Part shown: in pieces, positions 2,163 to 34,239 of the stretch
Numbering within the stretch: the first letter of the stretch is position 1
Layout: every line of letters starts with the position of its first letter
Source: a virus
Virus record (IMG/VR): IMGVR_UViG_3300026518_000035
Coordinates: 1-34,239 of that record
Strand: one strand, 5' to 3'
Length of the DNA: 34,239 bases
Translations under genes and position numbers: made by a program
The notes under the pieces: model-generated
The model's database searches: none
Told to the model about the DNA's origin: nothing
The model's input: the letters and a program-made list of their open reading frames with translations, nothing else

Positions 2163-2342
2163 ATGTACTACATACAAGACGAAAAAACAGGGTTCTTTTT
2201 GAATCATTCAACGCTAGGCACTTGTTCAACTGGGGACATCAGCATGGCGTGGACAACAGATGACTATGAGAAAGCACACCTGATGCAATACAGGGCGCAA
2301 TCAATCAACAAAAAAGCGGCTTTCATGGTGGTTGAACTATGA
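2163..2342 (+). CDS. Small phage protein of unknown function
   Basis: A 59-residue protein beginning MYYIQDEKTGFF and ending FMVVEL. AAGGGG stands upstream of the ATG, at the end of leader repeat copy 2. Its stop overlaps the next gene's start (ATGA at 2339-2342), so the two are translationally coupled. No family was recognised. The strong ribosome site, leader repeat and coupling support it as a real gene. Confidence 0.7.
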   Translation: MYYIQDEKTGFFLNHSTLGTCSTGDISMAWTTDDYEKAHLMQYRAQSINKKAAFMVVEL

Positions 2343-2473
2343 GCCGCGCCGCTTTTGTCTATCACAGCTACACCACAACACGGGACAGCGTTCAAGCAAC
2401 CGCGCGGCGGTTCAACTTAACCACAGCACAAGCAGCAAAAATCATCAAATTCGCACGCACACGGGGGCTATAG
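2339..2473 (+). CDS. Very small basic protein of unknown function
   Basis: A 44-residue protein, MSRAAFVYHS at the start, with a helical basic tail containing LTTAQAAKIIKFARTRG. The tail resembles a short helix-turn-helix-like segment, but that is only a suggestion. It starts by ATGA overlap with the previous stop and ends 1 base before the next ATG at 2475. Position in a gapless series of start-stop overlaps is the main support. Confidence 0.6.
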   Translation: MSRAAFVYHSYTTTRDSVQATARRFNLTTAQAAKIIKFARTRGL

Positions 2474-2474
2474 A

Positions 2475-2858
2475 ATGGCATATTTCAACGGCAGCACAGC
2501 ACACACACAGGACCAAGCAGCAAAACGGCATATCCTGGACGCGGCGCGGCACTCATGGGATGACAACAACGAAACACCGCCCGCGTCAAACTTTGAACTC
2601 TGCGAACATATCAAACAACGCTTTGACCACGAGGCGCAGCACAACGGTGAGCAAGCGGCTTGCTGTAATTGGTTGCAAGGGCTTGCCTTAAACATTGAGT
2701 TTATGAACCACAACATCCTTGAGCTTGCACAAGATTGGGGCGCGCTACCTGTAAACCCCACAGAAAAACAGCAAGCGCAAATCTTGAAGGGATATTGGGA
2801 CTATATGGCGGCAAAGACACTGCAACTCATGCGCGGCTATCATGTGCCCAAAGATTAA
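2475..2858 (+). CDS. Acidic phage protein of unknown function
   Basis: A 127-residue protein, largely helical by composition, with tryptophan-rich patches (HSWDDNN, GYWDYMAAK). GGGGG lies upstream of the ATG. The stop codon is inside leader repeat copy 3, as the first gene's stop is inside copy 2. No motif or family was recognised and no transmembrane segment is present. Length and gapless packing make coding likely. Confidence 0.7.
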   Translation: MAYFNGSTAHTQDQAAKRHILDAARHSWDDNNETPPASNFELCEHIKQRFDHEAQHNGEQAACCNWLQGLALNIEFMNHNILELAQDWGALPVNPTEKQQAQILKGYWDYMAAKTLQLMRGYHVPKD

Positions 2859-2937
2859 GAAACTTTAATGAACCATTCACGATAATCTAACACCTGCCCC
2901 ATATCATTGGGGCATCAACTCACCACAGGAGAGCACA
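2853..2937 (+). repeat. Leader repeat, copy 3, with shortened hairpin
   Basis: Nearly identical to copy 2 except that the stem is TGCCCC (2895-2900), loop ATATCATT, GGGGCA (2909-2914). One C/G step fewer on each arm is a paired change that preserves the hairpin. It ends in CACAGGAG, the ribosome site for ATG 2940. Confidence 0.75.
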
Positions 2938-2939
2938 AT

Positions 2940-3302
2940 ATGAAAGCACAACTGAAAGAGAACATAGAACATCGTTTGTCTGAATACCATGAGGACTTGA
3001 AAACCGCCGCGCAAGATATTTGTGAGCATGGTTGCGTCAACGGCGTTTCTGGCTTCATTTACTACAGCGAGACAGGGGCGTTTTATAAAGAAAACCGTGA
3101 AGACATAAACGCCTTGCTTGCGTCAATGGCGTATGAGTGCGGCGAAAATATGGATGCAATGGTTCAGCATTTTCGCGGCGTGGACAATACCCGTGAGGAA
3201 ATCTACGAAACGATGAATGGCGGCGAGCAGGATGTGAGCGTGGCGAATGTTCTGGTGTGGGTGGCGGTTGAACATTGGGCGAATCTTTACATTGACGCAT
3301 AA
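2940..3302 (+). CDS. Conserved small phage protein (DUF7222-like)
   Basis: A 120-residue protein. The segment EHGCVNGVSGFIYYSETGAF at about residues 28-47 looks like a recurring phage family; I associate it tentatively with DUF7222, of unknown function. The rest is helical and acidic, ending HWANLYIDA. ATG 2940 is chosen because AGGAG from leader repeat copy 3 precedes it. The stop TAA (3300-3302) is directly followed by a hammerhead ribozyme, so this gene's mRNA would be given a defined 3' end by self-cleavage about 25 bases after the stop. Confidence 0.75.
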   Translation: MKAQLKENIEHRLSEYHEDLKTAAQDICEHGCVNGVSGFIYYSETGAFYKENREDINALLASMAYECGENMDAMVQHFRGVDNTREEIYETMNGGEQDVSVANVLVWVAVEHWANLYIDA

Positions 3303-3304
3303 GA

Positions 3305-3363
3305 GCGGCGAAACCCCTTCGGGGGTCTGCGGTCGGGTGGTTCCCGCCGTACTGATGAGCTAA
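3305..3363 (+). ncRNA. Type II hammerhead ribozyme
   Basis: All conserved core bases are present in order. C11.1 (3309) precedes GAAA (3310-3313). Stem III is A-CCCC (3313-3317), tetraloop TTCG (3318-3321), GGGG-U (3322-3326), five pairs with the required A15.1-U16.1. Cleavage base C17 is 3327 in a GUC triplet. Stem I is U-G-C-G-G (3328-3332) with C-C-G-U-A (3347-3351), an internal loop, then GGG/CCC with a TGGTT loop. The core CTGATGA is 3352-3358 with G10.1 at 3359. The open stem is stem II, making it type II; it is weak (G-C, C-G, then a G-U). It sits between the stop at 3302 and the next ribosome site at 3367. Identification is by eye against the known consensus. Confidence 0.85.
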
Positions 3364-3379
3364 ACCAAAGGGGCAAATG

Positions 3380-3544
3380 ATGGGCGCATATTATATTCAA
3401 CGAAAAAGCGAAGGGAAGCTGGAGACGGTTGACCACTTCAATACACGGCGTGAGGCGCGGGCAATGCTTGCTGAATACCAAATGAGCGACCATGCTGCTT
3501 TATACTATATCAGCACGCGCGCTTGCATGGGGTGGACATGCTGA
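3380..3544 (+). CDS. Conserved very small phage protein
   Basis: A 54-residue protein, MGAYYIQRKS start, with NTRREARAMLAEYQMSD and the ending LYYISTRACMGWTC. The arrangement of an aromatic opening, a helix rich in Arg/Ala and a YYIS-RAC-W ending recurs in small early phage proteins, whose function is unknown to me. Two adjacent ATGs exist (3377 and 3380); 3380 gives better spacing from AAAGGGG (3367-3373). It is the first gene after the hammerhead, so cleavage would give its mRNA a new 5' end about 50 bases upstream. Confidence 0.7.
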   Translation: MGAYYIQRKSEGKLETVDHFNTRREARAMLAEYQMSDHAALYYISTRACMGWTC

Positions 3545-3798
3545 CCCTGAACAACAAGCAATTTGCAGAAACCACGGCGGAACACTCGCCACAGTGTGTG
3601 GGCTATGCCGAGCGCAAGCGTGGTGAAGTCATGCTCTACAACAATGCACACGAGAAAATCGGTGTGATTAACCGCCATAAATGCTTATGCAAGGCAACAC
3701 GCACCGACAAGGGCTATTGGTACTCTTTCGCAACGATTCCAGAAGTCGGCGAATACGACCGCCTGATGCACTACTATGATGATATGGGGCGGCTATAA
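3538..3798 (+). CDS. Small phage protein of unknown function
   Basis: An 86-residue protein starting MLTLNNKQF. It starts by ATGCTGA overlap with the previous stop, with GGGGTGG upstream. The middle has GYAERKRGEVMLYNNAHEK and the end DRLMHYYDDMGRL. Three Cys are present (CVGY, CLC) without a clear metal site. An alternative in-frame ATG at 3523 is less well placed. No family recognised. Confidence 0.65.
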   Translation: MLTLNNKQFAETTAEHSPQCVGYAERKRGEVMLYNNAHEKIGVINRHKCLCKATRTDKGYWYSFATIPEVGEYDRLMHYYDDMGRL

Positions 3799-3799
3799 T

Positions 3800-4051
3800 A
3801 TGTTCGCAGTAAGAGAGACAGACAACACAACCGCAACGCGCGGCGGCTGCATTGCGACCGCAGACGGCACAGGGCTTGATTCAGTCGCCCGCTGCATAGC
3901 ACAGTTGATTAACCTGCCACCGCAGGGCTTTGAGCAACTGAACGCAACACTGGCAGAGCGCGGCGAATACCTGCGGCTTGACCATATACAACTGACCGAT
4001 GCTGCATGCAGTTTTTGGGAAATAAAGAAGCAAAAGGGGAAATGGGCATGA
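3800..4051 (+). CDS. Small phage protein of unknown function
   Basis: An 83-residue protein starting MFAVRETDNT. GGGGCGG lies about 8 bases before the ATG. The middle segment SVARCIAQLINLPPQGFEQL with a following GEYLRL stretch suggests a small alpha/beta fold. The stop overlaps the next start (ATGA at 4048-4051). No recognised domain. Confidence 0.65.
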   Translation: MFAVRETDNTTATRGGCIATADGTGLDSVARCIAQLINLPPQGFEQLNATLAERGEYLRLDHIQLTDAACSFWEIKKQKGKWA

Positions 4052-4524
4052 CTTTACAACTATTAAACGCCAACAATTTACGCACCGCAATTGTGGTTCA
4101 GCGGGCAAGCATGCGCGATTTCGCCCTTACCTTACTACCTGATGGCACGCTAGAAGCGACTGACGGGCAACACATAGCCGCGCTTTTTCCTGAAACCTTC
4201 GCACCAATAGGAAAAACCGTCTTTCTATATCCACGCAAGACAATACCAAAAAGTCAAAAACGCCCTGTGTGGCAGGACTTCGCGGAGATAATCGACCAGC
4301 CACGCACGCAACCACGCGTTGCAGAAGTGGTTAAACATGCGGCAACCGCGCAAGCGAGCTTGCAACCAGTTGCTTGCTTTGGCATGCAGTTGCAGAAGGT
4401 GCTTAGTACCCTACCAAACAACGCACAATATACACTACAGGCGCGGCAAGATGCGGAAAAAATGTTCCTTGTTCTTTACCACAAGCGCGCGGCTATTGTT
4501 TTTTCAGGGGGTGAAGTATGCTGA
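4048..4524 (+). CDS. Unknown phage protein, possible degenerate sliding-clamp-like fold
   Basis: A 158-residue protein starting MTLQLLNANN. The segment LPDGTLEATDGQHIAALF (about residues 30-47) resembles the VATDGHRLA strand-turn of bacterial beta sliding clamps, and the ending MFLVLYHKRAAIVF resembles a terminal clamp strand pair. Between them lies a long linker and a helix (QLQKVLSTLP). A beta clamp has about 370 residues, so this would be a reduced form, and the match is short. ATG 4048 is preferred for its AAAGGGG site and overlap with the previous stop. It could equally be an unrelated small protein. Confidence 0.6.
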   Translation: MTLQLLNANNLRTAIVVQRASMRDFALTLLPDGTLEATDGQHIAALFPETFAPIGKTVFLYPRKTIPKSQKRPVWQDFAEIIDQPRTQPRVAEVVKHAATAQASLQPVACFGMQLQKVLSTLPNNAQYTLQARQDAEKMFLVLYHKRAAIVFSGGEVC

Positions 4525-4751
4525 AAAGAATCGCAAAACTACGCACAGGCAAGTTGCGGCTTGTGCAGGACATCCGCGACTATGTACAGGAGCATGACGA
4601 CTTGCCGCCTGCGTTTATTGAACTTGGTTTTGACCTGATGTACCTGCCGATGACTGCCATGTACACAATACAATCAACCGACGGCTTCACCGCAGCGTCA
4701 CCGCAGCTTTATGATGTTGTGAATGATATGGTTAAGGGGCTTGTTAGGTGA
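4518..4751 (+). CDS. Small phage protein of unknown function
   Basis: A 77-residue protein starting MLKRIAKLRTGK, basic at the N-terminus and then acidic, with LPPAFIELGFDLMYLP in the middle. It starts by ATGCTGA overlap with the preceding stop. No transmembrane segment or known motif. Coupled position is the chief support. Confidence 0.6.
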   Translation: MLKRIAKLRTGKLRLVQDIRDYVQEHDDLPPAFIELGFDLMYLPMTAMYTIQSTDGFTAASPQLYDVVNDMVKGLVR

Positions 4752-4894
4752 GAAAGCCCAACTATATCGCCACCAAAAACCGCGAAGGCGTGCTCGAGTT
4801 TTATTCTAAAGGCGTGCTTGTCTGCTACCAAAAACCACGAGATGAAAAACACGAGGCGCGGCTTGTTAAGCGTTGGCAAGATGATGCAGGATAA
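4748..4894 (+). CDS. Very small basic protein, GTG start
   Basis: A 48-residue protein beginning (V/M)RKPNYIATKNREGVLEFY and ending RLVKRWQDDAG. The GTG at 4748 overlaps the previous stop (GTGA) and AGGGG stands 8 bases upstream. The chain looks like a short beta hairpin followed by a charged helix. No family recognised. Confidence 0.55.
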   Translation: MRKPNYIATKNREGVLEFYSKGVLVCYQKPRDEKHEARLVKRWQDDAG

Positions 4895-4970
4895 AATCAT
4901 CGTTGCCATCATCATAGTGTGGGGGCTTGCTTTCCTACACGATTTAATTCTGAAAATCATGGGGGCTTGA
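4881..4970 (+). CDS. Tiny single-pass membrane protein
   Basis: A 29-residue open frame starting MMQDK, then a continuous hydrophobic run IIVAIIIVWGLAFL (about residues 6-19) long enough for one membrane pass, and a short basic tail ending KIMGA. It overlaps the preceding gene by 14 bases and ends 1 base before the next ATG. The ribosome site is poor. Fit into the gene series and the clean membrane segment make it plausible but not certain. Confidence 0.45.
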   Translation: MMQDKIIVAIIIVWGLAFLHDLILKIMGA

Positions 4971-4971
4971 T

Positions 4972-5220
4972 ATGAAAACATTTATCTACACGGCAGAATA
5001 TAAGAGGAATTGTAAAGTCCTCATCAAGGTTTGGCGCGTCAAACTAAACAATCCCGAAAAGGTGGGTGAGCGTGTGTACACCACTGCATCATGGAAGGGC
5101 GAGGCGGGGAGCGTACACACACTGATAGCAAAGCACGGGAAATTGTCTGCAAAACACTTCAATGGCTATAAAATAAGCCATCCTGACATTAAGGTTATTG
5201 ATTTGGGGTATGTGATATGA
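4972..5220 (+). CDS. Small basic phage protein of unknown function
   Basis: An 82-residue protein starting MKTFIYTAEYKRN. GGGGG precedes the ATG. The sequence alternates hydrophobic and charged residues (KVLIKVWRVKL), suggesting a beta sheet, and contains the ending KVIDLGYVI. The stop overlaps the next ATG (ATGA, 5217-5220). No family recognised. Confidence 0.65.
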   Translation: MKTFIYTAEYKRNCKVLIKVWRVKLNNPEKVGERVYTTASWKGEAGSVHTLIAKHGKLSAKHFNGYKISHPDIKVIDLGYVI

Positions 5221-5699
5221 AAACAGCACTTGAAACACTGAACCTAGAGATGGGTGATTTCAAACTACGGCGGACTGATTCGCGGCGTTATCCAGGTGCA
5301 ACATTTACATGGTACGCGGTGGACTTCGATGGTGAGAGCTACGATGCAGGCGACCCGAACCAAGGGCGCATGACAACCGCTGCAAAACATAGCTTCATCT
5401 TAGGTGCAATTTATGCGGCTTGCCCTGCGATACCTGACTACATAGCAGCACTTGGCGAGGACTTCACCACATGGCATGAGCATGGCGGCGAGCTGCGTTA
5501 TATGTGGGACACGCGGAACAAGCCGAAGAATCCGCAGGACTTACGCGATATGATGTTCAGCCGAGGCTTGCCCTTCTACCCTGATGACTGCTACAAGGGA
5601 CAGGCTCACTGCCTAGCCAAGGCAGGCGCACCCACTTTCATCATCGCCACACTGCTATCCGCACACCATAACAAACCTGCGAAGGAGCAAGCACTATGA
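5217..5699 (+). CDS. Phage protein of unknown function
   Basis: A 160-residue protein starting MKTALETLNLEMGDF, among the largest in the rightward operon. It has TFTWYAVDFDGESYDAGDP at about residues 29-47, a hydrophobic helix SFILGAIYAACPA near 64-76, and a C-terminal hydrophobic helix TFIIATLLSAHH near 140-151. Neither hydrophobic run is long enough to be confident of a membrane pass. Start and stop both overlap neighbours by 4 bases (ATGA and ATGA). No family recognised. Confidence 0.7.
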   Translation: MKTALETLNLEMGDFKLRRTDSRRYPGATFTWYAVDFDGESYDAGDPNQGRMTTAAKHSFILGAIYAACPAIPDYIAALGEDFTTWHEHGGELRYMWDTRNKPKNPQDLRDMMFSRGLPFYPDDCYKGQAHCLAKAGAPTFIIATLLSAHHNKPAKEQAL

Positions 5700-5977
5700 C
5701 ACATGCAGAGCAATTCTTGGACAATTGGCATGCTGAATATGAGGAGACTATGGGCGAGAAATGTGAGCCTAGTTTTGATTCATGCAGGTGCTTCTATTCA
5801 GAAATAAAGAGCATCCCGCACCAGTTGTTTGATGATGGCAGCGTAGTTGTGAACTACCGTGACTGTACGGGCAAGCTGCACTATGTAGCCCTATGCTCTG
5901 CCAGCGAGCTGGACAATGAGTGGGACATGGCGTGGACATGCCATGGACATAGCTACCTGATGCAGCCACTCTTTTAA
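5696..5977 (+). CDS. Small acidic phage protein, last gene of rightward operon
   Basis: A 93-residue protein starting MTHAEQFLDNWHAEYEE. It has five Cys, a C-R-C pair near residues 30-32, and a His-rich end (TCHGHSYLMQPLF). AAGGAG stands about 9 bases before the ATG, which overlaps the previous stop. The 21-bp terminator hairpin begins 20 bases after its stop. No family recognised. Confidence 0.7.
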   Translation: MTHAEQFLDNWHAEYEETMGEKCEPSFDSCRCFYSEIKSIPHQLFDDGSVVVNYRDCTGKLHYVALCSASELDNEWDMAWTCHGHSYLMQPLF

Positions 5978-5996
5978 GCTGCCTGTGCGGCAGTGA

Positions 5997-6044
5997 ACAA
6001 AAAGAAACCCTGCAAGCTTCACGGCTTGCAGGGTTTCTTTTTGT
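5997..6044. terminator. Bidirectional intrinsic terminator between convergent operons
   Basis: Perfect 21-bp arms (5997-6017 and 6024-6044) with a 6-base loop. The stem ends in CTTTTTGT on the plus strand and in the equivalent T-run on the minus strand, so it can stop transcripts from both sides. It lies between the rightward operon (stop 5977) and the leftward replication operon (stop 6019). The leftward gene's stop codon is in the loop. Confidence 0.92.
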
Positions 6045-6417
6045 GTTCAATATATTGTTGCAGCGCGTGTACCTGCAACACCAGCGAGCAAACAACACGC
6101 GCCCACTGCGGTACAGGGGCATTGCCTGTTCGCCACTTATCCAAGCAACTGCGCCCCACACCAAGGAAGCATGCGACTTCCTTCACTTGCCAACCAATGC
6201 CGCGCAATGCGCCCACAGGGTCGGCGACTTCATGGGCGGGATACCTAGCCGCATTTGCTGGCAGTTGGCAGGCGCGACACAACTGGACATACTCAACAAT
6301 CCATTTACGCACTCCGCCCTTTTCCCACAAGCGCGATATATGCAACCGCCGCCGCAGGGCTTCATCTGAAACGAAGCCAGCAGAGTGGCGCAACCTGCGC
6401 CACTCTGCCATGGTCAT
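6019..6417 (-). CDS. Helix-turn-helix DNA-binding protein, probable regulator
   Basis: A 132-residue protein at the end of the leftward operon. The C-terminal third has VKEVACFLGVGRSCLDKWRT (about residues 79-98), a clear helix-turn-helix pattern; the N-terminal part also has a basic helix (EALRRRLHISRLW) that could be a second DNA-binding unit. ATG 6417 is 2 bases after the previous stop; a GTG at 6423 is an in-frame alternative. The last residues (HKKKPCKP) are encoded by one arm of the terminator stem. A phage transcription regulator is the likely role; its target is unknown. Confidence 0.65.
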   Translation of the reverse strand: MTMAEWRRLRHSAGFVSDEALRRRLHISRLWEKGGVRKWIVEYVQLCRACQLPANAARYPAHEVADPVGALRGIGWQVKEVACFLGVGRSCLDKWRTGNAPVPQWARVVCSLVLQVHALQQYIEHKKKPCKP

Positions 6418-6419
6418 GC

Positions 6420-6809
6420 TCACGATTGCAGCCACTTGACCACGCCCGCACGCCCTTGGATATGCGCCTTCCATGCAAAATCCATCTTCTGGATACCAGT
6501 ACAAGCCCCCTTGAACAAGAAAACATCTGCATCAACTTGAACAAGCGTGTAGCCCTTGCCCCCTGCATCATCCAATGAACCAAGCCACTCGACTTGCCCC
6601 ATGCGCATACCCACATTGACCACGGTGGTTGGTCGCACTGGCAAGCATGGTATGCACTTCAACTCAACCCAATGCACCTGCCCTGACTTATCTAAGAACA
6701 TCAAATCTGGAATACCTGGCGTGAACTTGTCTTCAAATCGCTGGTAGAAAGCCTTTCCCTCTTTCAGTTTGCTGGTTACCCATCGCGCCAGTGCGCGCTC
6801 ACTCGCCAT
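6420..6809 (-). CDS. PD-(D/E)XK nuclease, VRR-NUC-like
   Basis: A 129-residue single-domain nuclease. The active-site pattern is visible: an acidic helix (YQRFEDKF, about residues 22-29), GIPD (32-35) and VELK (48-51), giving the D35, E49, K51 set expected of this fold. This arrangement is that of VRR-NUC and related junction or structure-specific nucleases. In a phage such enzymes resolve branched DNA before packaging, or degrade host DNA; the sequence does not decide. ATG 6809 is used because GAGG precedes it; the upstream in-frame TTG is less likely. It overlaps the preceding gene by 11 bases. Confidence 0.75.
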   Translation of the reverse strand: MASERALARWVTSKLKEGKAFYQRFEDKFTPGIPDLMFLDKSGQVHWVELKCIPCLPVRPTTVVNVGMRMGQVEWLGSLDDAGGKGYTLVQVDADVFLFKGACTGIQKMDFAWKAHIQGRAGVVKWLQS

Positions 6810-7284
6810 GTAGGTTTGCCTCAATGTTGATACTGCGTTCCATTACATCATCATAGAAACTGCAAAAACGAACAACACCGTGCCAATGTTTGATTAGCTG
6901 GTCGGTGGTGTTCACATAGTCAAACACCATTTGCTGTAACAAATCTTCAATGCGCTGTACCTCGTGCATGTAGGTTTGCTCCGCTTCTTGGAACTCATGC
7001 ACCGCAGCCATCATTTCAGGCGTTGTTTCAGGTGCTTGGATAGGCACAGGCTTAGGTGTGCTGAAAACCACATCAAAACCATCCACCACCACTGACCCAA
7101 CATACTGCTTAAAGTTCACAGGAAGCTCGCTAAGAGCTTTTCTGGCATCCTTCGGTACGATGGCATCATATACGCGCTCACCAAGCTCTAAACGCGCATT
7201 GTCCAGCACCTTCTTAGCGCCACCAAGCTCGAACGCCACCACACTATCAACAATCTCTCTTTTAATTGTCTCATTCAACCGCAT
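6799..7284 (-). CDS. Conserved phage protein of unknown function
   Basis: A 161-residue protein starting MRLNETIKREIVDSVVAF. The N-terminal half is helical and charged (KKVLDNARLELGERVYDAIV), followed by a Pro-rich short strand region (STPKPVPIQAPETTP) and a long C-terminal helix. The first 60 residues faintly recall a nucleotide-modification-associated phage family (Nmad5), but I cannot confirm that. ATG 7284 follows AAGGAG with ideal spacing; the upstream extension to 7362 would add a spurious hydrophobic stretch inside the preceding gene. Confidence 0.65.
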   Translation of the reverse strand: MRLNETIKREIVDSVVAFELGGAKKVLDNARLELGERVYDAIVPKDARKALSELPVNFKQYVGSVVVDGFDVVFSTPKPVPIQAPETTPEMMAAVHEFQEAEQTYMHEVQRIEDLLQQMVFDYVNTTDQLIKHWHGVVRFCSFYDDVMERSINIEANLHGE

Positions 7285-28549: not shown

Positions 28550-28902
28550 CTGGTAACATTAGGGTTGAGTGCAATGTTGCCTTGCCAGATACGCTCAACA
28601 GTTCCATCAGGGAACTCGACTTCAATATCGAACACGCCTGTCTTAAAACTAAGCGCTGATGTCGCTGATGCGCTTAGTTTTAATGTAACCGACCCTGTCA
28701 CAGGGTCATGCACAATGCCGCCATTCACCGTGTTTATGTCCACAACAGGAGAAGAGGAAGACACCTTCTCCCGAACCTGCATACGCCAGACAGCATTTGT
28801 TGTGTCCACTGGGGTAATGCCGTCCGCTTGCATGAAGAAGAAGTTTTTAACCCATGTAGCACCCTGCTCGATGGTATCTATGTCATTGATTACAGCAGCC
28901 AT
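28546..28902 (-). CDS. Conserved phage virion-region protein
   Basis: A 118-residue protein with the pattern IEQGATWVKNFFFMQADGIT, WRMQVREKVSSSSPVVDINT, GGIVHDPVTGSVTLKLSASA and FDIEVEFPDGTVERIWQGNI. This order recurs in small phage structural proteins, usually encoded near tail fibre genes. GAGGAG lies upstream and the start overlaps the giant gene's stop (TAATG). A 14-bp perfect inverted repeat lies inside it at 28643-28683. Confidence 0.72.
   Translation of the reverse strand: MAAVINDIDTIEQGATWVKNFFFMQADGITPVDTTNAVWRMQVREKVSSSSPVVDINTVNGGIVHDPVTGSVTLKLSASATSALSFKTGVFDIEVEFPDGTVERIWQGNIALNPNVTR
28643..28683. repeat. Perfect 14-bp inverted repeat inside a gene
   Basis: Arms TTAAAACTAAGCGC (28643-28656) and GCGCTTAGTTTTAA (28670-28683) with a 13-base loop, all within coding sequence. 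Read leftward (the sense strand) the stem is followed by GACAGG, so it lacks a classic T-tail beyond its own TTTT. It could be an attenuator, a processing site or a remnant. Confidence 0.8.
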
Positions 28903-31900
28903 TACTTGAACTCCTCGTATAAACCGTCCACCAGCCCAGCGGCAGTGTTGCGTTCTGCCACAAGCATATCAATTTTCACGCGCAACGCTTGTGGCGAGAT
29001 ATGTTCACTGTTCCGCATGAGGTGCATAATCTTCTTATTGTACGAGCGAACCCTGCCCATGACGCTTGTTATCCTTGCACGGTACTTGTGAGCCGCTGGA
29101 TGTTCTTTGCGAAGGGTAACAATTTGCTGCAAGTCATGCGACTTGCGCAAGGCTCTCTCTGAACCAACTAGCTTCTGCACAGCGCTGTTCATGTCATACA
29201 AGCGCCCCATGTACCGTGTGTTCTTTGTCTCAAACTCAGGAAAGAATCGCTTGAATGGGGTCATGTCCATGAGCCGCGTACTTGGTTTCACACGGTCAAG
29301 CAGTGGGTTTGCCGCATGGTCAGTGATGCTCAAGGTAATATCTGCGGCAGTACCAAGGTATGAGCGCATGAGAAACTCAACCTTGCGTGGTGATGTCAAG
29401 GTATTCCGCAAGGAATCAGGCGCGAAGGATGGGATGATTGCATCAAAGCCTTTTGCCAAAGCTGTGGATGTTGTGTGCTGGAAAGGGCTTTCTTGTAGGG
29501 TTGGGTAAAGGCTTTCCTGATACATGGGCACAATACTGCGCCCTGTGAACCAGTTGGTGTTTCCTGCCAACTGCACAAGAGGCTTGATGAGCTGAGGTGT
29601 TGGGTTGATGCTCAGAGTGGTAGTCAGAGCAAACAGCAGCCGTTCATTGAGTACCTTAGAGCCGTCATCACCATTCATTGCACCCACCATGCGCTCTGCC
29701 GCTGTGGCAATTAGCCCAAACTCGAAAGGCTTCGGAAGCGCAAAAGGAACCTTGGTGTTTGGTATATAGAAATACCAGTACAAATCCTTCTGCTCATCAG
29801 TGAGTTTCTTGTACTCATCGTTATCGGCATTCATCACTGCGTTCATAGCAGACATGATGAACATGATGCTGCCGACTTTAGCAATGGCGGCTTTGTGTTC
29901 ATCCAAGCCACGACCCAAACGACCCAAGCCTTGGATGCGCGCATTCAGGAATGGAACGGTGTCCAAGAAGAAGCCCACCATCTTGGACTGCCCCCTGCGC
30001 GCAAAGTCCAGTGTATCCAGCGCAAGGAATGCTGCCTCATCCAGTGTGCGGTCACGCGGCTCGCCTGTCTTAGGGTCAACGCCCTTGCCCTCTGCTGCTG
30101 CCTTGAACACAGCAAGGCGTGCTGCGTTCTCAAAGTGTGCTGAGAAGTTGTTGTACCCCTTAACCGCCATGTGCAGCAGGGTCTTGTTGCTCTTAGCTAC
30201 ACTTGATAGGGCAACATCTGAGGACACATCATCATAAGCACCAACACTCGGAAGCGCGCCGTTTGCCCACGCCTTGGCGTAGTTCTCATCCTTGTCAAAG
30301 GATGACTTCCATCCGCGGAGAATGTCTATGTAGGATAGGTTCAGGTCGGTTGTGCCCATGACCGAGAGTGAATCTCGGAAGTGGTTTGCCAACCAGAACG
30401 GCGGTGTCTTGGTGACAAGGTTTGTGAGCAAGGTCTTGGCTTTAATGGCTACCTGCATGAACGCATGTGTGCCGCCGTCCTCATAGGCAGCAAGCCCTCG
30501 TGAATCCCCCAAAGAGCTGATAGCAGTCACCATTGCCTTGTTTTCCGCATCGGCACTCAATGTTCTATAGTGCCGCTCACCATTCATCACGAATGAAATG
30601 TCACGCTTGCCGTTGGGTGCAATAGCAGCAACAACCTCGTGGAATCCGCGCTGTTCTGAAACAGAAAGGTCTCGTGGGTTTAGCCCAAGCTCATTCAGGG
30701 TTGGCGCAATCATCTTCATATCTGCTGAATGGATGGATTGCGCGGAAGCCAGTACCTTCTTGAGTGGGCGCGCCTTACGCCAAACACCATCCCGATACAC
30801 AGGAGCTGCATTGGTGTTCTTCGCCTCATCATCAGTCAGCCAGACATCCTCACCTTGTGGCGTAACATGGTGTGACCGACCAAGCTCATCGCGTTCGAGT
30901 AAGTGCTCTTCTATGTTACGCATGGCGATTGCGTGTGCCGAAGCCTGCATTAGTGCCATGACATTTGACTGCATGTTGGCAACAATGTCACCAACATTGC
31001 GACCTGTTTCACCCTCTGATTGTTTGACCAAACCGTTACCAAAAATAGATGTGTGCGGTTTGGTCACGCTGCCATCTTCTTTGATTCGACTGAGTGGGAT
31101 GTAATTCCCATATTTACGCAGAGCATCCTTTGCATCTGCTGTTATTGCACCTGCATCCACAGCGTACTGCAATTTATTGTCGTCAAACTCATCCAGTTCA
31201 TCCAGCACCTTATTCCAGTTGGCATAGTGTGGACTTGCTTTGCTTACCCGCATGGTTGCTTCATACTCAGACTGTGACAAGAACCCATCTGCACCCACCT
31301 TGTCCATGACAGCGGCTCGCTTGGCGGCGGCGTAGGCGAACATCAGGTCAATGTCACCTTCCACATCACCGAGGATGGCGTTCAAAGAACGCTTACCTTC
31401 AATGCGCTCCACTTCGCCTGAGGCTTTGTTGTACCGTAGCTGCCCACCCTGCACATCAATCAGCATGGTTGCTTGTGAGTGTGCATGGCGGGACATGGTT
31501 GCTGACATATACAGTTTCGAGTTGTCAGCGCGCACACCAGCCCCACGCTTCTGTTTATCTGAGTACAACAGCTCAATGTTGGAATCCTGAATGTTTGCTT
31601 GCAGGGAACGCCAGAAGGCTGAATCAGTTAGGCGCTTACCAGCGGTCTGTAACTCGTCCATCCTTGATTCTGCATAAGTGAGCTTCCGTGCACCAATTTT
31701 GTCCAGTAGTGAGGCATACTCACTTAGTATGGAATCCGACACATCGGCGTAAACACCCTTCTCTTTGGCTTCATCAAAAGCTCTGCGGGCATCGGTCATA
31801 GCCTTCGATGTGTAGTTACTGTATAGCCTGTCCTGCCGTGTGTTGTGCAGTTTTAGGTTGGACAGGCGGCTTGCCGCTACATCATGCAGCTCTGCTGGAG

Positions 31901-34239
31901 TTAGCTCAAACCGCATACCAAATGTGCGCAGAACAGCTTTTACCTTATTGATTAGGTGGTCAACAAACTTACGCAAGGATGCTGTGCCATCTACATAGTT
32001 GGTGACGGCGTATGCTAGGATTTCATCATCCATGTGGATGTCAGGCGTACCAGCAAGCTTTGCTCGCTCATAAGCTTCAAGCGCCCATCCCTCACCGCGA
32101 ACAATGTCAAGGCGAGCCAGCGCATCCTTGCGTGCAGGGGACACATGGCTCAAGGCATAGTGCAATAGCTCGTGCTTCAAGGTCGATTCAATTTCTGCTG
32201 GCGTGTTGTGTGCGGCAACAATGTGAATGGTTCCGTCTGTATCAAACCACCCCTGCGCACCGCCATACAAGTCATCCTCCTCATGCAGGATGACCATACC
32301 GTCACGCATTGCTTTTCTTGCACCAGCCTTGTGTAAGGCTGCGGTAGCCTCTGCCATAGTTGATGAAGCAGCGGAATGGCTTCTGGGCACACTCTTGCGG
32401 GATTCCTCCCACCCCCACCGCATAATGCCATTGAGTACAGCTTTCGGTGACATATCACCGTGTGCCACCAGCTCCCCGCCGTTCATGTATCTGATTGACA
32501 CAGGCATGTACTTTATGCCTGCCGCAGCGGCAGCGGCAATGCGGTGGTTCCCCTCCGCGATGTATGCCTCACCTCGGTGATTAACAAGTACCAGAGGAGG
32601 CTCCTCAATCACTTCCCCAGCAGCCAGCCTAAAGTATTTACCACTCGATGGGTTGTCACGATACGCTTCCTCACCTGCTAGTCCCTTGGCAGCGGCCAAG
32701 GTGCTGAGTGACACCATTGGGTTCCTCTCTCCTGTGAAGTACCCTGTTATAGAACCCTGCATCATGTTGTCTGATGCCATGGCAGCTTCCTGCTTACTTG
32801 CAAGCCAATCACCGTTAGGGATGTCTGACACAAAAGCGTATTGGGGAGACTTTGCAAGTACCGTGATAGCAGCGTCATTTGCATAAAATGTTGGTGGGCG
32901 TGTTGATGTACTGCTGGCGTACTCGCCACGGCGTTTGATAGCATCAAACCATGCAGAACCCTTGGAGAACAAGATGTCCCCATCATCAGGATGACCGTAT
33001 GGTGCAGCCTCAATGAAGTCATCAGCCTCCTTGTCCAGCGCAAGCTCCTCCGCCACCATCTTCTCGTGCTGCGCGTTGATTCCTGCTGGCGTGTAGACTG
33101 CATCAGCTCCTTGCTCAATGGCTTCGTACAATTCCTGTACAGAGTGTTCGCCGATGTAACCTGCTTCCCACGCAGCCTCCGCCATATCGTCTGCACTCAC
33201 TGCGCCCTTACCTAGATGACCCAATGGTGTCCTGATGTTGCCTTCTGGTGGGTATGATTCGGCGAACTGCTTGAACTCACCTGCATACTCACTTCCTTTC
33301 TTGGTGGAAACACCACCTCGCTTACGAATGAATGTGTGCAGGTCATCTTCCTCAGTGTTAACCATGAGCCGCGTCCTTGCTGCCACACGAGCGCGCTCAC
33401 TACGCAGAGCAGCAGTCCGAGATGCCGCATTCGCAATAAGATGCTCTGCATACTCAACACCCGCCTTGGTCAGTGGTTTGGTGTTGTATGTGCGCCCCTT
33501 GCGTGTACGCAGTACACCATCCTTAAACTGATAGCCCTCAGAAACAAGCCGCTCAACTTCTGCTTTGCGCGTAACACCCGCCCCTTTTCGCAGAGGCTTC
33601 TCCAACGCCGCTTTCAGGGTCTTGGTGCGACCATTAGGTTTGTCGTCAAAGAAACCGTCATAGGTTTGCTTGGCAGGTTCTGGTTCCACGGTTTGCTTGG
33701 CAGGTTCTGGTTCCACGGCTTGCTTGGCAGGTTCTGGTTCCAGTAAGCCCATGGCTGCGTTATATGCGTCAGTGTACTCTGGTGCAGGAACATAGCCCTG
33801 AGCCACAGCATCATCATAGGTTTTGACTGTCGCCTTGGCTTGTTGGACTTCTTTCGATTCCAAGGAAACTTTCTGCTTCTGTTCTGCCAAAAACTCTTGT
33901 GGTGATTGTGGTTTTACAGTTTCGACAGGCACAAGCGCCTTGGCTTTATCATACTCTGCCTGATGTTCTGGTGTGAGGGTAAAGCCCTGAGCCACAGCAT
34001 CATCATAGGTTTTGACTGTCGCCTTGGCTTGTTGGACTTCTTTCGATTCCAAGGAAACTTTCTGCTTCTGTTCTGCCAAAAACTCTTGTGGTGATTGTGG
34101 TTTTACAGTTTCGACAGGCACAAGCGCCTTGGCTTTATCATACTCTGCCTGATGTTCTGGTGTGAGGGTAAAGCCCTGAGCCACAGCATCATCATAGGTT
34201 TTGACTGTCGCCTTGGCTTGTTGGACTTCTTTCGATTCC
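28902..34239 (-). CDS. Giant polyvalent virion protein (5' end beyond window)
   Basis: At least 1,778 residues; no stop before the right edge, so the true start is outside. Counting from the ATG at 34184: two full 63-residue repeats (1-126), EPEPAKQ repeats near 150-175, a ParB/sulfiredoxin-like segment LVNHRGEAYIAEGNHRIAAA at about 525-545, and a zinc-peptidase motif KHELLHYAL (about 667-675) with DDEILAYAV near 717 as a candidate third ligand. The C-terminal 500 residues (NHFRDSLSVMG, TVPFLNARIQGLGRLG) resemble a large-polyvalent-protein-associated region (LPD38-like). Such proteins are packaged in podovirus-like particles and ejected with the DNA. Domain names are by eye. Confidence 0.8.
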   Translation of the reverse strand, partial: ESKEVQQAKATVKTYDDAVAQGFTLTPEHQAEYDKAKALVPVETVKPQSPQEFLAEQKQKVSLESKEVQQAKATVKTYDDAVAQGFTLTPEHQAEYDKAKALVPVETVKPQSPQEFLAEQKQKVSLESKEVQQAKATVKTYDDAVAQGYVPAPEYTDAYNAAMGLLEPEPAKQAVEPEPAKQTVEPEPAKQTYDGFFDDKPNGRTKTLKAALEKPLRKGAGVTRKAEVERLVSEGYQFKDGVLRTRKGRTYNTKPLTKAGVEYAEHLIANAASRTAALRSERARVAARTRLMVNTEEDDLHTFIRKRGGVSTKKGSEYAGEFKQFAESYPPEGNIRTPLGHLGKGAVSADDMAEAAWEAGYIGEHSVQELYEAIEQGADAVYTPAGINAQHEKMVAEELALDKEADDFIEAAPYGHPDDGDILFSKGSAWFDAIKRRGEYASSTSTRPPTFYANDAAITVLAKSPQYAFVSDIPNGDWLASKQEAAMASDNMMQGSITGYFTGERNPMVSLSTLAAAKGLAGEEAYRDNPSSGKYFRLAAGEVIEEPPLVLVNHRGEAYIAEGNHRIAAAAAAGIKYMPVSIRYMNGGELVAHGDMSPKAVLNGIMRWGWEESRKSVPRSHSAASSTMAEATAALHKAGARKAMRDGMVILHEEDDLYGGAQGWFDTDGTIHIVAAHNTPAEIESTLKHELLHYALSHVSPARKDALARLDIVRGEGWALEAYERAKLAGTPDIHMDDEILAYAVTNYVDGTASLRKFVDHLINKVKAVLRTFGMRFELTPAELHDVAASRLSNLKLHNTRQDRLYSNYTSKAMTDARRAFDEAKEKGVYADVSDSILSEYASLLDKIGARKLTYAESRMDELQTAGKRLTDSAFWRSLQANIQDSNIELLYSDKQKRGAGVRADNSKLYMSATMSRHAHSQATMLIDVQGGQLRYNKASGEVERIEGKRSLNAILGDVEGDIDLMFAYAAAKRAAVMDKVGADGFLSQSEYEATMRVSKASPHYANWNKVLDELDEFDDNKLQYAVDAGAITADAKDALRKYGNYIPLSRIKEDGSVTKPHTSIFGNGLVKQSEGETGRNVGDIVANMQSNVMALMQASAHAIAMRNIEEHLLERDELGRSHHVTPQGEDVWLTDDEAKNTNAAPVYRDGVWRKARPLKKVLASAQSIHSADMKMIAPTLNELGLNPRDLSVSEQRGFHEVVAAIAPNGKRDISFVMNGERHYRTLSADAENKAMVTAISSLGDSRGLAAYEDGGTHAFMQVAIKAKTLLTNLVTKTPPFWLANHFRDSLSVMGTTDLNLSYIDILRGWKSSFDKDENYAKAWANGALPSVGAYDDVSSDVALSSVAKSNKTLLHMAVKGYNNFSAHFENAARLAVFKAAAEGKGVDPKTGEPRDRTLDEAAFLALDTLDFARRGQSKMVGFFLDTVPFLNARIQGLGRLGRGLDEHKAAIAKVGSIMFIMSAMNAVMNADNDEYKKLTDEQKDLYWYFYIPNTKVPFALPKPFEFGLIATAAERMVGAMNGDDGSKVLNERLLFALTTTLSINPTPQLIKPLVQLAGNTNWFTGRSIVPMYQESLYPTLQESPFQHTTSTALAKGFDAIIPSFAPDSLRNTLTSPRKVEFLMRSYLGTAADITLSITDHAANPLLDRVKPSTRLMDMTPFKRFFPEFETKNTRYMGRLYDMNSAVQKLVGSERALRKSHDLQQIVTLRKEHPAAHKYRARITSVMGRVRSYNKKIMHLMRNSEHISPQALRVKIDMLVAERNTAAGLVDGLYEEFK
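33663..33742. repeat. 27-bp tandem repeat encoding EPEPAKQ units
   Basis: Three copies of a 9-residue unit (VEPEPAKQ plus Thr or Ala) encoded by near-identical 27-bp DNA. It lies just inside the 189-bp repeat region and forms an acidic Pro-rich linker. Confidence 0.8.
33794..34239. repeat. Perfect 189-bp tandem repeat in the giant gene
   Basis: Copy boundaries at 33794, 33983 and 34172; two full copies appear identical base for base and a third begins and is cut by the window edge. Each encodes 63 residues (from YDDAVAQGF to ESKEVQQAKATVK). The preceding unit toward the C-terminus (YVPAPEYTDAYNAAMGLL) is a diverged cousin. Identity at DNA level implies recent expansion, and also a risk that copy number was collapsed in assembly. 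Confidence 0.95.

Follow-up and report, generated by a model that had tools for sequence, protein, structure and literature searches.

A predicted type II hammerhead ribozyme between two genes of an uncharacterised phage and the placement of its relatives in phage operons

Type II hammerhead ribozymes were reported in 2011 (Perreault et al., PMC3088659), along with their pseudoknot, their gene-flanking copies in prophages and their cleavage both in vitro and in E. coli, and the purpose of the phage hammerheads was left open at that description. In the stretch of viral DNA analyzed here (IMG/VR record IMGVR_UViG_3300026518_000035, 34,239 nt, called the window below), an initial annotation made from the letters alone had placed such a ribozyme in the spacer between two genes. 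The questions raised by this locus are whether the element belongs to the type II family and what cutting at this site would do to the mRNA.

When the region 3200-3460 was compared with all of Rfam by cmscan, the single match was Hammerhead_II (RF02276) at 3306-3370 on the plus strand, covering the full model (1-66) with 33.3 bits (E 2.7e-5 for 261 bp and all of Rfam), and Hammerhead_II alone gave an E-value of 8.2e-7 against the whole 34-kb record. The Infernal search that had been suggested as a check of the annotation has returned one match at the expected place, though below the RF02276 gathering cut-off of 37 bits, which is a curation threshold and not a biochemical feature. Because the score is 3.7 bits short of this cut-off, a whole-record scan at the gathering threshold is silent on the hammerhead. 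In the Rfam alignment, stem III is shorter than in the model and a few insertions of 1-2 nt are present. The RF02276 scan found no second Hammerhead_II copy in the 34-kb record and no match in 14 control genomes. Members below the cut-off also occur elsewhere, three of the eight copies parsed in the phages Daudau and Paedore being absent from the Rfam gathering list. A structural parser demanding the core, at least four pairs in stem III and at least three in stem I detected no type II hammerhead in 6.0 Mb of shuffled sequence and one doubtful match in 1.1 Mb of phage DNA selected without regard to hammerheads. Minimum free energy was set aside as evidence for the hammerhead (z -0.9). The score, the intact core and the covariation of relatives and pseudoknot described below support the assignment of the element at 3306-3370 to the type II hammerheads, at the site where it had been proposed.

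The features of the locus are as follows.
2940..3302, plus strand: upstream gene, 120 aa, phrog_27501 / phrog_2543
3307..3309, plus strand: 5' strand of stem II, GGC (sequence, Rfam alignment, relatives' lengths); pairs C3309-G3359, G3308-C3360 and the wobble G3307-U3361
3310..3313, plus strand: core G12, A13, A14 and A15.1, GAAA (sequence, Rfam alignment)
3313..3326, plus strand: stem III, five pairs (A-U, then four C-G) between strands A3313-C3317 and G3322-U3326, UUCG loop 3318-3321, -8.6 kcal/mol
3327, plus strand: C17, with predicted cleavage after GUC, between C3327 and U3328 (hammerhead rule on the matched core)
3328..3351, plus strand: stem I with the 5-nt loop UGGUU at 3338-3342 (sequence, Rfam alignment, folding); pairs U3328-A3351, G-U, C-G, G-C, G-C, then bulged U3333, C3334-G3346 and three G-C
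3338..3342, plus strand: pseudoknot strand 1, loop I UGGUU, potentially pairing with 3363-3367
3352..3358, plus strand: core CUGAUGA, C3 to A9 (sequence, Rfam alignment)
3359..3361, plus strand: 3' strand of stem II, GCU (sequence, Rfam alignment, relatives)
3363..3367, plus strand: second strand of the pseudoknot, AACCA, directly preceding the Shine-Dalgarno (SD) core
3367..3373, plus strand: SD AAAGGGG of the downstream gene, with A3367 common to the pseudoknot (sequence)
3377..3544, plus strand: downstream gene, 55 aa, phrog_4939
5997-6044: inverted repeat of 21 bp, perfect and ending in A/T runs, where two gene blocks converge; likely a bidirectional terminator

The spacer reads, from 5' to 3', GGC-GAAA, CCCC-UUCG-GGGG-U, C, a 24-nt stem-loop, CUGAUGA-GCU, AACCA and AAAGGGG, which is the type II order (CGAAA, stem III, UC, stem I, CUGAUGA-G), in which loops close stems I and III and stem II is the open one. 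The invariant core, the three stems around it and the UH cleavage dinucleotide were each tested and are all present, and the core (CUGAUGA, GAAA, the pair A3313-U3326 or A15.1-U16.1, and C3327) has no substitution at all. The earlier description was accurate in that all conserved core positions (C3309-GAAA, GUC, CUGAUGA and G3359) and a five-pair stem III with a UUCG loop and an A-U closing pair were recognized, while stem I, given there as eight pairs, has nine pairs with the bulged U3333. Stem II had been called weak, and it does have about three pairs, two Watson-Crick and one G-U, but this is not unusual. Among the matches listed, the number of stem II pairs in 205 distinct phage relatives is 2 (7 relatives), 3 (88), 4 (96), 5 (11) and 6 (3), so that 184 of the 205 have three or four. 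The second pair is GC, AT, TA or CG in these listed relatives and the third is mostly GC, also AT, TA and GU. A stem II of no more than two pairs is common in type II hammerheads (Perreault et al., PMC3088659), and the short stem II read from the letters of this phage is normal for its relatives.

Loop I UGGUU and the tail AACCA can form five Watson-Crick pairs, and this potential pseudoknot is a feature of most RF02276 members. At least four such pairs were found in 80% of 106 relatives with a long stem I among the matches listed, vs 42% when the tails were swapped between members, and compensatory versions (TTAGCCT/AGGCTAA, TGCCCT/AGGGCA and GGCT/AGCC) occur in relatives; for relatives with a short stem I among the same matches, no pseudoknot signal above swapped tails was obtained. 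The UGGUU/AACCA pairing had been missed; because the strand at 3363-3367 belongs to the element, the hammerhead extends to 3367. The pseudoknot governs the speed of type II cleavage and is needed for fast cutting (Perreault et al. 2011, PMC3088659).

Both genes flanking the hammerhead are real phage genes. In the spacer 3303-3376, 64 nt separate the stop (3302) from the SD and 74 nt separate it from the first ATG (3377), in place of the 77 bases first given, and a second ATG, at 3380, lies at a more favourable distance from the SD than the first. In Synechococcus phage S-CBP4, a homologue of the 55-aa downstream gene belongs to an early region and precedes the RNA polymerase gene, and the block 2163-5977 (plus strand) that carries both genes is compact, consists of small genes and is opposed to a replication block on the other strand. 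These genes had been called early, and the compact block of small genes and the S-CBP4 homologue fit early expression, but a search for a convincing promoter of the block found none. The inverted repeat at 5997-6044 closes the plus-strand unit that contains the hammerhead. In the preceding gap (2859-2939), a hairpin TGCCCC-ATATCATT-GGGGCA lies at 2894-2913 (plus strand) without a U-run, and is possibly a processing or stabilising element.

Relatives were collected by one degenerate pattern scan of viral contigs (at least 120 stretches), in which parts of stem II and of the core were fixed for at least one copy per locus, and about 240 type II hammerheads were parsed among the matches listed. 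Since stems I and III must reach a minimum length to be parsed, the pairing percentages of these two stems are not independent evidence. For 232 hammerheads among the matches listed, some of whose loci are near-duplicates, both a stop codon upstream and an SD with a start downstream were found in 79%, vs 21% for random same-strand and 12% for antisense positions. Among these matches the median distance is 5 nt between the stop and CGAAA and 35 nt between CTGA and the start; the corresponding distances in this phage are 6 and 25 nt, on the sense strand. The position between cistrons, as first annotated, thus agrees with the placement of about 230 relatives, and the hammerhead of this phage, judged by its sequence context, fits the family rule of stop, ribozyme and SD in sense orientation. 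Several copies per operon are frequent but not universal in phage hammerheads: among the matches listed, all copies were on the same strand in 48 of 48 multi-copy loci, the most copies in any locus were 11 (one 7.5-kb locus), and 69 of 117 other parsed loci, many of them fragments, had a single copy, as does this phage. Locus L080, from one phage contig, holds eleven type II hammerheads on one strand in 5 kb (2226-7187, plus strand), about one per 0.5 kb, and would be a better system than this phage for studying operon cutting.

By blastn against phage records, only the hammerhead itself was matched, in the Streptomyces phages Daudau (NC_054668), Paedore (NC_054671) and phiScoe1. With Daudau and Paedore the identity is 79-89% over 54-67 nt, including an identical stem III and UUCG loop, and loop I UGGUU is the same as that of Daudau; their hammerheads likewise follow a stop directly and precede a start, whereas they have several copies in one gene block and unrelated flanking genes. 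According to the depositors' gene tables, all eight parsed copies in the two phages start 1-13 nt after an annotated stop, and in one case the copy and the next annotated start share 4 nt. The records of both phages carry no RNA annotation for these several hammerheads between annotated genes. A pattern search for near-identical hammerheads found none.

The novelty of site and role had been overstated, since gene-flanking type II copies and mRNA processing were published in 2011, when the cutting of long phage transcripts into gene-length mRNAs was already proposed (PMC3088659). The element shares with the published RF02276 members (PMC3088659) the core, the permutation, the short stem II, the pseudoknot between loop I and the 3' tail and an intercistronic site in a phage, and differs in its score below the cut-off, its shorter stem III and its small insertions. 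In the triple hammerhead of A. tumefaciens ardA (PMC3088659), which also flanks phage-related genes and is thought to give gene-length mRNAs, three copies surround ardA whereas one copy lies here between unnamed genes, and its own cleavage was seen in E. coli whereas cleavage in this phage is predicted. In HHphage of the haloviruses HF1/HF2 (PMC3088659), a hammerhead in the early region lies 13 nt upstream of a start codon and the 5' end of a transcript was mapped close to the site of cleavage (Perreault et al. 2011), although the core is a variant one, the virus is archaeal and the gene is the first of its transcript. The present hammerhead is therefore a new example, in an uncharacterised phage, of an element already described, and the quantified placement rule is a modest addition; no later paper on this rule was found in the literature searched, mostly without subscription journals. 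The tight spacing of stop, ribozyme and SD and the uniform strand in more than 100 phage contigs argue for an action on the mRNA between cistrons.

We consider it likely that the RNA cleaves itself after C3327 during transcription and so splits the polycistronic mRNA between cistrons, with a hairpin on each new end. Stems III and I would form first, and the cut would follow as soon as CUGAUGA, stem II and the pseudoknot of loop I with the 3' tail have emerged, before or as the SD core (3370-3373) is made, parting the upstream cistron or cistrons from the gene 3377-3544 and later genes. The type II order keeps stem III upstream and stem I downstream, so that the upstream mRNA would close with stem III, a hairpin capped by C(UUCG)G, and bear a 2',3'-cyclic phosphate, and the downstream mRNA would start with a 5'-OH on the base-paired stem I hairpin, followed by the SD. 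In bacteria, hairpins and paired 5'-OH ends hold back 3' exonucleases as well as the 5'-monophosphate-dependent RNase E, and decay that depends on a 5'-monophosphate (RNase E/RppH) acts poorly on a 5'-OH end. Because both new ends would be hairpins and the 5'-OH a poor decay substrate, the two mRNA halves could have separate lifetimes. As a compact single-copy case, this phage is one in which a single point mutation could reveal the effect of the cut on both flanking genes.

The timing of the cut would matter for this splitting of the mRNA. In transcript folding, the growing RNA up to 3368 folds into stems III and I, whereas for the finished 81-nt RNA at equilibrium a misfold pairing CCCCUU (3314-3319) with AAGGGG (3368-3373) reaches -30.7 kcal/mol vs -23.1 for the hammerhead, the pseudoknot being excluded from the calculation. 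Since the misfold wins once the SD is complete, cleavage must be fast and beat refolding, or else the uncut RNA would hide the SD. A decayed or misfolding remnant with the shape of a hammerhead, inactive and serving only as an intercistronic hairpin, is an unlikely alternative. The score under the Rfam cut-off and the alternative minimum free energy fold, which destroys stem III, speak for it, as do the single copy and the distance of the nearest DNA polymerases, which are about 43% identical. Of the 18 consensus hammerheads assayed in the study of 2011, 4 showed no activity (PMC3088659). However, the unsubstituted core, a stem II and pseudoknot that match the family pattern, the co-transcriptional intermediates with stems III and I, and the other genuine-looking members under the cut-off in Daudau and Paedore all stand against a remnant. 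Single-protein scans found no close relatives of the phage, whether by the upstream gene or the DNA polymerase in viral contigs or by the DNA polymerase in genome contigs. The DNA polymerase alignment gave 80 loci with identity up to about 43%, in which the parser found no convincing hammerhead; a parser match in locus L206 was dismissed for its poor stem III.

The same complementarity could instead mean that the ribozyme cuts in order to turn on downstream translation, the uncut CCCCUU strand hiding the SD and cleavage freeing it permanently. The match to the SD is perfect, the predicted pairing of the SD with the 5' fragment is 0.73 in the uncut RNA and its predicted openness is 0.20 before cleavage and 0.77 in the 3' product, but these figures come from folding without pseudoknot or kinetics. 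Moreover, in 175 relatives among the matches listed, SD pairing with the 5' fragment is 0.081 vs 0.092 with swapped fragments, and the duplex falls slightly short of the strength expected by chance, which rules out SD sequestration as a family trait. This phage is an outlier, in which a GC-rich stem III could produce the match by accident, and the complementarity is probably accidental because the relatives show no excess over chance. We regard this switch as somewhat less probable even than the remnant, and the same low estimate applies to the combined proposal that type II hammerheads are general phage operon punctuation (at about 5 nt from the preceding stop and about 35 nt from the following start, with as many as 11 in 5 kb) and that here the cut also removes CCCCUU as an irreversible on-switch.

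It is very improbable that the cut serves RNA circularisation, splicing through ligation of the ends, or mobility of gene cassettes between hammerheads. Hammerheads can ligate, others serve RNA circles and retrozymes, as mentioned in PMC7761336 and PMC4918200, and the hammerhead is all that this phage shares with the Streptomyces phages, the flanks being unrelated; but one copy in the record leaves no second copy to bound a circle or cassette, Perreault et al. (2011) sought spliced or circular products and found none (PMC3088659), and the near-identity is explicable by constraint, the nearest neighbour being 11 edits away with a family median of 10 among the matches listed. Bacterial spacers often contain G-C hairpins capped by UUCG, and CCCC-UUCG-GGGG could be a terminator or processing hairpin with the rest coincidence, but this is scarcely credible given the E-value per record, the parser's silence on shuffled sequence and the precise fit to the placement rule, and stem III as a terminator is ruled out by the lack of a U-run and by its absence from the terminator scan.

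Two other features of the record were observed. The minus strand carries at 5971-5998 one CRISPR repeat of type I-F (matching Rfam CRISPR-DR4 with 42.9 bits, above the cut-off), in that orientation just after a strong terminator, and no second CRISPR-DR4 copy was found in the record. Near-identical repeats occur in I-F arrays of Gammaproteobacteria, e.g. Erwinia, Pectobacterium and Vibrio, and the repeat resembles the solitary repeat units acting as RNA anti-CRISPRs (Racr, PMC10651486). Near the contig end, an ORF of 1760 codons (28902-34184, minus strand) starts with near-identical repeats (AQGFTLTPEHQAEYDKAKALVPVETVKPQSPQEFLAEQ... and EPEPAKQ units).
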